The notes below the pieces were generated by a model. The model had not been told where the DNA came from. It searched no databases and worked only from the letters and a program-made list of their open reading frames with translations. The translations under genes and the position numbers were made by a program. This document shows, piece after piece, positions 11,366 through 41,632 of a stretch of 64,000 nt of DNA. Within the stretch, counting starts at the first letter, position 1, and each line of letters starts with the position of its first letter. This DNA comes from Thermoleophilaceae bacterium (GTDB taxonomy: Bacteria > Actinomycetota > Thermoleophilia > Solirubrobacterales > Thermoleophilaceae): positions 62,001 to 126,000 of the forward strand of contig DASUWY010000034.1 of NCBI GenBank assembly GCA_036378175.1. Reading direction: 5' to 3'.

Positions 11366-11458
11366 CGGAGCGGCGAAGGAATCGAACCTTCCAAGCGGAG
11401 GGCTGCTCCGCCCTGCCGGTTTTGAAGACCGGATGGGCCACCAGGCCCATGCCACTCC
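11366..11458 (-). tRNA. selC: tRNA-Sec (UCA anticodon), selenocysteine tRNA
   Basis: On the minus strand the sequence folds into the bacterial selenocysteine tRNA. It has an 8-bp acceptor stem (GGAGTGGC with GCCGCTCC), a 6-7 bp D stem (TGGGCC-TGGT-GGCCCA), the anticodon arm CCGGT-CTTCAAA-ACCGG with anticodon TCA, a long variable arm (GCGGAG-CAGCC-CTCCGC) and a 5-bp T stem (GAAGG-TTCGATT-CCTTC). The 8+5 geometry and extended D stem separate it from tRNA-Ser and from ordinary suppressors. CCA is not encoded. It reads UGA as selenocysteine with SelB. No selA, selB or selD gene is in the window. Confidence 0.95.
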
Positions 11459-37540: not shown

Positions 37541-40150
<2,610 letters not shown>

Positions 40151-40307
40151 GCGCCGCAGCGGCCAATCCTTCGGCGCCCGCTACGCCGATTTGTGGAACT
40201 TGCGGGGACGTTGCGGTCGTCAAGCGGACCGCTTCTGGTTGACCCCTGTTTCTCCGCTTGCTCGTCTGCTTTCATAAGGACTACCAGGGAAAGGAGGTGG
40301 TCCTAAC

Positions 40308-40352
40308 TTGAGTGACAGTTTTTTCGGGACCCTGGAGGTGTCCGGCCGTTAG
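40308..40352 (+). CDS. Possible 14-residue peptide ORF inside the structured RNA
   Basis: TTG at 40308 opens a 14-codon frame (SDSFFGTLEVSGR after the start) ending in TAG. The upstream AAAGGAGGTGGTCC is almost fully complementary to the 16S rRNA 3' end (one G-U), ending 10 nt after GGAGG, a slightly long but workable spacing. The stop codon lies in the loop region of a hairpin (40341-40357), so translation would alter folding of that element. The heptamer T TTT TTC is in register for a -1 slip, which would give a roughly 20-residue product ending at TAA (40370). It could be a regulatory leader peptide; it may also be untranslated. Confidence 0.35.
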   Translation: MSDSFFGTLEVSGR

Positions 40353-40470
40353 CCGGAGCTGAAGCGGACTAACGGAGTCCATCCAGGGCACCGTCGGATG
40401 GCGTAGGTGGGGGCTGGTCCCGCCCACCCAACCTGATCAGGTTGAGGACCGCCGCCGGAAGTTCAGCGAA

Positions 40471-40507
40471 ACGAGAGGGGGGCGCTTCGGCGCCCCTCAC
40501 TCGTTTT
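40471..40507 (+). terminator. Intrinsic terminator closing the gyrA-downstream region
   Basis: ACGAG...GGGGCGC-TTCG-GCGCCCC...CTCGT forms a long stem with a UUCG tetraloop and ends in TTTT (40504-40507). It ends 9 bp before the stop of the convergent oxidoreductase gene and, because the flanks also read AAAACGAG on the other strand, may serve both directions. Confidence 0.8.
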
Positions 40508-40516
40508 CGGCCGAGG

Positions 40517-41632
40517 TCAGGTGGTCTGGGCCGGCTCGCCGGTCTCTTTGAGCCCGATCTCGGCGCAGGCTGCCTCGAGCGGGCGCAGGCCGAAGGCCTC
40601 CACGGGACCGAGGGAACCGGCGCCCTCCACGCCCTCCTCGGCCGCCTGTACGGCACCCCAGGCGAGGATCTCGCCGGTGAAGGTGTAGCCGTTCGGGCCG
40701 CGGAGCTCCACGCGCTCGATCACCGAGCCGGCCGAGTCCTCCACCTCGGCCACCACGAGGGAGCCACTCTTGGCACGCGCCTCCGGTCCGGGTCCGCCGG
40801 TGGATCCCTTCACGAAGCGCTCGGCGAGCCGTTGCGAGCCTGCCGTGACCCCGGGAATCGCGGATAGCGCTGACATGCCCTGCATCACGCGTGAGGCGGG
40901 GCCGAACCAGCCGAGGTACACGTCCACCTCCCGTAGCGACGGGTAGATGCGAGGCAGCGAGAGATGCTCCGAGCAGCCGATCGAGATCCCGCTCAGCTGC
41001 TTGCCGCCGGTGCTGAAGGCCCGCACGCGCTTGGCCGAGCGCTCGGTGACCACCCGGCCGTTCTCGAAGCGGAATGCCGGGGCCATCATCACGCCCGCCA
41101 CCGAGGAGGCGGTGCCGCCGCTCATGGCCTCCCTGGGGCTGCCCCCGCCGGTGAGGAAGTAGCCCACCGACACCTTCGCGCCTCGCTCACCCGCCCGCTC
41201 GAGCGCGATAGCCGCCGCGAGGTTGCCCGGCACGAAGTCGTATCCGAATGCGGTGATGAGCGTGGCCCCGCGGGCGCGAGCGGGCGCGTCGCGCTGCTCG
41301 AACACCTGGCGGATGAACGGCGGCTCGCCCGTGGAGTCGAGGTACACCGCGCCGGCATCCACCGCCACGCCAACCGCGGTCGATCCCCAGCGGAGGAACG
41401 GACCGACCGTGCTCACGAGCACGGTGTACTCGTCCACGAGCTCGCGCAGCGTGTCGGGCCGGGTCACGTCGGCCACCGCGCTCTCAAGGCCGCCGAGCTC
41501 CTCCGCCATCTGCTTGACGGCGTTCTCGTTGCGCGCCGCGAGCAGCGGATGGGCGCCCCGCTTGGCAAGTGCGTCGGCCACCAGCCGGCCCGTGTAGCCG
41601 GTGGCCCCGAAGAGAACAATCGGTCGCGCCAT
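40517..41632 (-). CDS. Saccharopine-dehydrogenase-like NAD(P)-binding oxidoreductase
   Basis: The 371-residue protein starts with a Rossmann motif (PIVLFGATGYTGRLVADALAKRG), then HPLLAARNENAVKQMAEELGG, VLVSTVGPFLRWGSTAVGVAVDAGAVYLDSTGEPPFIRQVFE and AFGYDFVPGNLAAAIAL. This is the saccharopine dehydrogenase/trans-acting enoyl reductase family, including mycobacterial proteins of lipid metabolism. The substrate is unknown. The middle region (PREAMSGGTASSVAGVMMAPAFR) matches the family. It lies immediately downstream of the DMT transporter gene on the same strand (9 bp), possibly an operon. Confidence 0.85.
   Translation of the reverse strand: MARPIVLFGATGYTGRLVADALAKRGAHPLLAARNENAVKQMAEELGGLESAVADVTRPDTLRELVDEYTVLVSTVGPFLRWGSTAVGVAVDAGAVYLDSTGEPPFIRQVFEQRDAPARARGATLITAFGYDFVPGNLAAAIALERAGERGAKVSVGYFLTGGGSPREAMSGGTASSVAGVMMAPAFRFENGRVVTERSAKRVRAFSTGGKQLSGISIGCSEHLSLPRIYPSLREVDVYLGWFGPASRVMQGMSALSAIPGVTAGSQRLAERFVKGSTGGPGPEARAKSGSLVVAEVEDSAGSVIERVELRGPNGYTFTGEILAWGAVQAAEEGVEGAGSLGPVEAFGLRPLEAACAEIGLKETGEPAQTT

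Follow-up and report, generated by a model that had tools for sequence, protein, structure and literature searches.

What kind of transcript lies between gyrA and the next gene of the window (the whole 64,000-nt stretch of DNA that was analysed), and what might it do? A sequence-only reading had proposed a structured, terminator-ended RNA starting at 40277, had suggested that, if conserved in relatives, it would be a new family tied to gyrase or to the origin region, and had seen in two complementary 7-mers the makings of kissing loops or a hairpin swap. The gap is bounded by the stop codon of gyrA at 40150 (Pfam DNA_topoisoIV match) and by a convergent saccharopine-dehydrogenase-like gene (40517-41632, minus strand), and by direct reading it contains the RNA, the 7-mers and the terminator. 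A putative −10-like promoter element, TGC-TTTCAT, was identified by conservation at 40267..40275 (plus strand); a T-rich or TANNNT-like block, 20 to 14 nt before an AAAGG motif, was conserved in several clades, and a simple scan returned no match to the sigma-70 consensus. As an invariant A (the first A of helix P1, described below) lies 7 nt after the conserved −10-like element, transcription probably starts near 40283, just 3′ of that element and from a promoter of its own, rather than at 40277. The 3′ end is formed by a predicted intrinsic terminator at 40477..40503 (plus strand), with a hairpin at 40477-40498 and a T-rich tail, and most close homologues carry a GC-rich hairpin at the equivalent place. 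The RNA is thus predicted to be a stand-alone gene of about 220 nt, from about 40283 to 40503. Neither ARAGORN nor Rfam found a tmRNA in the window. Elsewhere, a tRNA-Sec with a UCA anticodon was present at 11366-11458 (minus strand), so the organism probably makes selenoproteins.

The earlier expectation that no known Rfam RNA would be found held for the window at gathering cut-offs, where no family matched, but a permissive search returned RF02471 (Ms_IGR-5) as the best sub-threshold match to the RNA (18.2 bits, E 0.047). Since the gathering cut-off of that family is 45 bits, the window copy was filed as a divergent homologue rather than a scored member. With 40270-40507 as query, DNA similarity was found in 77 of 101 related genomes, almost invariably at one locus per genome, and the most conserved block was about 40283-40352; the genomes compared are probably mostly metagenome assemblies. 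When the relatives were searched with RF02471, the same loci were found, and in one of them (L031, in genome G040 of the window's order) the score rose over the cut-off (45.5 bits) at the DNA-homologous locus, which removes the claim of a new family. RF02471 matches were spread across the phylum, the top copies being of mycobacterial and streptomycete type, with up to 176 bits. A covariance model (R1) trained on 30 sequences from beyond the window's order, many being RF02471 matches themselves, gave the window RNA a score of 72.5 bits (E 2.3e-17), while the second-best place in the 64 kb reached 18.3 bits. Together with the loci shared with RF02471, this indicates by sequence comparison that the RNA is almost certainly a divergent homologue of Ms_IGR-5. 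RNA-seq has revealed transcripts related to it in Streptomyces lividans, S. avermitilis and M. smegmatis (PMC8079986, PMC8780764, PMC10454040). The window RNA and Ms_IGR-5 are both stand-alone intergenic RNAs and share the Shine-Dalgarno (SD) block, GAGGTG, the stop, and the GAAUCC and P5 blocks; in contrast, P1, P2 and P3 in the form described below are missing from the Rfam structure, and the family is labelled a non-coding 'Actinobacteria sRNA', whereas a micro-ORF is present in our alignments.

This micro-ORF, preceded by an extended SD sequence, is the central feature of the RNA and had been missed by the sequence-only reading. In the window it runs from TTG at 40308 to TAG at 40352 on the plus strand (14 codons, MSDSFFGTLEVSGR), in a frame that is kept in the homologues. 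These were aligned on the SD block and GAGGTG, and 114 distinct sequences were counted, which are mutually related, so that the counts are not independent. The stop was the fifth codon after GAG (GAG-GTG, three codons, stop) in 114/114, as TAG in 95, TGA in 14 and TAA in 5, and this exchange among TAG, TGA and TAA is the clearest sign in the alignment of a constraint on termination. In 113/114 a start-type codon lay in frame 8-13 nt to the 3′ side of the SD and no stop intervened before GAG; the same test applied to the other two frames gave 38 and 0. The starts were mostly non-AUG (TTG 60, CTG 16, ATC 16, ATG 13, GTG 4, ATT 3 and ATA 1, where CTG, ATC and ATT were assigned by position alone), and the ORF length ranged from 12 to 17 codons. 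GAGGTG was demanded when the loci were located, and its invariance therefore carries no independent weight; no start was demanded, and a stop solely in the looser pattern that placed seven loci. In codons 2-6 the third position was no more variable than the first and second, the residue before E-V varied with the P1 pairing, and the last sense codon was nearly always NGC, a pattern in which selection seems to act little on the peptide as such and strongly on where the ribosome stands. We consider it very probable from this conservation that the micro-ORF is really translated. Ribosome reads have been found by Ribo-seq on the Ms_IGR-5 homologues of M. abscessus and M. smegmatis (PMC4974804), with the caution from the same study that classical non-coding RNAs give ribosome-associated reads too.

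The extended SD, GGAAAGGAGGTGGTCC (40288..40303, plus strand), complements the 3′ end of 16S rRNA, GGATCACCTCCTTTCT, with G-U pairs included. The complementarity spans 14-16 nt and takes in the 16S 3′ tail in full. The 16S rRNA of two single-contig genomes (G034 and G066) ended in GGATCACCTCCTTTCT, and searching these genomes with the 16-mer, allowing at most one mismatch, gave just two places, the 16S 3′ end and the SD of the RNA; the same search gave the 16S match alone in G004 and the RNA match alone in G047. The window's own genome contained the exact 14-mer SD once, and its assembly returned no 16S match. Among the Acidobacteriota homologues, the complementarity to 16S runs on through GGTCCAG. 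In S. aureus, an extended SD combined with a non-canonical start is reported to mark regulated initiation sites (PMC13009471). The infC, cvfC1 and ccpN sites described there resemble the window RNA in their strong extended SD and conserved non-AUG start, but they are starts of ordinary proteins, whereas the ORF here has 12-17 codons and lies in a structured stand-alone RNA.

The folding of a 251-nt RNA was 3.7 standard deviations more stable than that of its dinucleotide shuffles, of which 0/200 were as stable, and four predicted helices, all on the plus strand, carry the structure. P1 is formed by CCAGGG (40284..40289) and CCCTGG (40330..40335), the latter inside the ORF, with variants CCAGRG/CYCTGG, CACGAG/CTCGTG and CGTAGG/CATACG; nearly every standard pair type occurred at its positions two and three, and 0/2000 shuffles were as good. 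Its inner part, TCC (40301..40303) paired with GGA (40327-40329), closes the start-codon loop and is invariant, with 100% of cells paired, so it offers no evidence of covariation. P2 joins GGTG-T-CCGG (40337..40345, inside the ORF) to CAGG-G-CACC (40384..40392) with one A/G mismatch in the window and the rest paired; across 30 other sequences (GGTGNCYGS with SCRGNCACC) 100% of cells were paired, with changes on both sides. The 7-mers of the sequence-only reading, CCGTTAG (40346..40352), which holds the stop and the sense codon before it, and its exact complement CTAACGG (40369..40375), do pair, as helix P3 (92.8% of cells paired, changes on both sides), and in L114 the change of TAG to TGA within P3 is matched by a change in the partner strand. 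Between P3 and P2 lies GGAGTCCATC (40374..40383; consensus GGARUCCAA), predicted to be unpaired save for its first two bases. P5 (GGTGGG..CCCACC, 40406..40428) showed changes on both sides at all five counted pairs, and its conserved GTCC loop (40417-40420) is present as GUCC in most lineages. The covariation score of P1, P2, P3 and P5 was strong in all three alignments: 0/500 shuffles reached the observed value (counts that are not probabilities, because the sequences are related), and slid versions of the helices all scored lower. RNAalifold recovered P2 and P3 unguided from alignment A2 and gave a different, nearly invariant fold with little covariation for that region from alignment A1, so the structure of P1 to P3 rests on the pair counts. 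In the structure so predicted, P1 is shown to enclose the SD and the start codon, and P2 and P3 the stop together with the final codons. Rfam pairs the SD with a CUGC segment; this pairing was rejected, as compensatory changes directly support P1 and P2. With this covariation and the conservation in 77/101 genomes, the structured, terminator-ended RNA first noticed downstream of gyrA is borne out.

Two variations on this layout were observed. In L091, L092, L104 and L105 the part after the stop is rebuilt, with SD, ORF and stop retained, and a scan of these four found no GAAUCC/P2 anchor. Between P5 and the terminator, the window RNA contains a perfect 14-nt palindrome, AACCTGATCAGGTT (40430-40443), which is absent from the aligned relatives and therefore apparently species-specific.

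The distribution of the RNA was not confined to the window's phylum. A pattern scan of named genomes gave at least 120 loci, and among the matches listed most were from Actinomycetota, along with Acidobacteria, Sumerlaeota and single others. Within the window's phylum the DNA pattern was found in 85/296 genomes, a few of these being chance coding matches. RF02471 exceeded its own cut-off in an Acidobacteria contig (L134), and the covariance model matched 16/40 Sumerlaeota and 9/80 Acidobacteriota genomes, compared with 0/61 genomes in the phylum of a single match labelled Nitrospirae; given this difference, an origin of the non-actinobacterial matches in misbinned contigs was not supported. 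The Acidobacteriota and Sumerlaeota homologues retain P1, GAG-GTG, three codons and the stop, and by these features the predicted RNA is present in at least three phyla, Actinomycetota, Acidobacteriota and Sumerlaeota. One contig labelled Acidobacteriota (L190) has an actinobacterial-type sequence and may be misbinned. The match labelled Nitrospirae (L192, 525-582, minus strand) has an SD and the micro-ORF MGSTNPTASEVAAS (23.6 bits, weak structure) and is unproven given the 0/61 in its phylum; L182 (4046-4103, minus strand) has an SD and the micro-ORF MKSTDLVICEVVAP (28.2 bits, weak structure), and both may be outlying members or chance. In L269-L272, from Acidobacteriota, two copies of GAGGTG stand in the micro-ORF (about MSYHSSSEVSYRTREVAAT), as though by duplication of a segment. 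Spread by phage was considered and rejected, since no viral contig fitted the pattern.

Several other explanations of the RNA were weighed, beginning with those that the locus itself invites. Kissing or swapping between the exact 7-nt complements of the window would need two separate hairpins, and these (CCGGC-CGTTA-GCCGG and GGACT-AACGG-AGTCC) are indeed present in the window species; in 43 relatives, however, 62.9% of their cells were paired and shuffles were as good in 145/500, so that a conserved pair of local hairpins with complementary loops was rejected as being at chance level. The local hairpins neither persist nor covary, while the 7-mer helix nested in P2 does both, making such a switch the least probable of the explanations considered. 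Nearly as improbable is a leader or attenuator of a downstream gene, an idea that would fit an ORF which resembles a leader peptide and precedes structures and a terminator; the gene 3′ of the RNA varies from lineage to lineage and is convergent in most relatives, as it is in the window, and a transcription-attenuation leader was rejected on this synteny, 40517-41632 (minus strand) not being co-directional. The upstream neighbour is no more constant. In most close families the RNA follows gyrA on the same strand, in L002, L071, L073, L075, L076 and L079 gyrA lies downstream in the opposite orientation, and in the other families, searched with the window's GyrA alone as query, it was not found beside the RNA; a tie to gyrase or the origin does not survive a neighbourhood limited to part of the order and found in either orientation. 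One representative of the mycobacterial group has an aminotransferase class IV gene upstream of the RNA, and a gene for a THAP4-type heme-binding protein comes after the RNA in a related genome; this position probably corresponds to the Rv0812/Rv0813c gap of M. tuberculosis.

The remaining explanations accept the RNA and differ in what they regard as its product. A base-pairing regulatory sRNA, as the Rfam label has it, in which the ORF is incidental or just protects the RNA, is consistent with a stand-alone gene with a terminator, with the conserved GUCC loop of P5 and the conserved unpaired GGARUCC, and with the RNA-seq transcripts of Streptomyces and M. smegmatis; an incidental ORF would, however, not hold an in-frame stop in 114/114 sequences through exchanges of TAG, TGA and TAA, and we regard this explanation as unlikely. 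A similarly low probability is given to a micropeptide of 12-17 aa with the core T-x-E-V as the product, the RNA structure just tuning its synthesis. T was found in 101/114 and E-V in 114/114, S/R-E-V-A recurs in Acidobacteriota and Sumerlaeota, and the frame is strictly retained; yet E-V is encoded by GAGGTG, which also begins P2 and was the hexamer used to collect the loci, codons 2-6 lack an excess of third-position variation, and the last residue exchanges freely among R, C, G, S and H. That the RNA captures or protects free 30S subunits through its 14-16 nt complement, translation being secondary, would account for the coverage of the whole 16S tail, for the sole such match in two genomes and for the extension through GGTCCAG in Acidobacteriota, but it leaves the conserved frame, start and stop unexplained and would require very high expression from a single chromosomal copy, and we consider it rather improbable. 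Among known systems, SgrS/SgrT is a dual-function sRNA that encodes a small peptide, and it likewise combines an ORF and a structured regulatory part in one RNA. Unlike in SgrS/SgrT, the ORF of the window RNA overlaps conserved helices, and its peptide is shorter and mostly unconserved; we know of no sequence relation between the two. tmRNA is also a structured RNA with a very short ORF, but the window RNA has no tRNA-like end.

The explanation that we prefer, and to which we give an even chance as a whole, is that the RNA would be a tiny mRNA and a structured RNA in one, whose folding is gated by the ribosomes on its micro-ORF. P1 would offer the SD in a bulge at which a 30S subunit can dock, and the mostly non-AUG start would set the efficiency of initiation, as at other sites with an extended SD and a non-canonical start. 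A translating ribosome would have to open P1, P2 and P3, and at the stop it would cover P2 and P3 on their 5′ sides. Ribosome traffic would thereby decide whether the downstream RNA, made up of the GGARUCC segment and of P5 and its GUCC loop, is presented in folded form or accessible to a partner. The RNA could in this way report the state of translation initiation or termination in trans, and the frame and the position of the stop would matter more than the peptide. The gating step itself, in which translation sets the downstream fold, is drawn from the geometry of the helices and is proposed tentatively.

Annotation misses this RNA in many genomes, the window's own included. To the existing listing of Ms_IGR-5 the analysis adds that the RNA reaches at least three phyla, bears a conserved micro-ORF and an extended anti-16S sequence, and has a revised structure that covaries, and an orphan sRNA listed as non-coding in mycobacteria and Streptomyces becomes a directly testable translation-linked system. 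In its fullest form, which we offer as a possibility still short of probable, the proposal is that of an ancient RNA common to at least three phyla (Actinomycetota, Acidobacteriota and Sumerlaeota), whose obligatory micro-ORF, starting mostly at a non-AUG codon and having the genome's strongest complementarity to the 16S tail, may serve as a built-in ribosome sensor: the translation of a nearly sequence-free peptide would set the fold of a trans-acting RNA and so report the capacity of the cell for initiation or termination.
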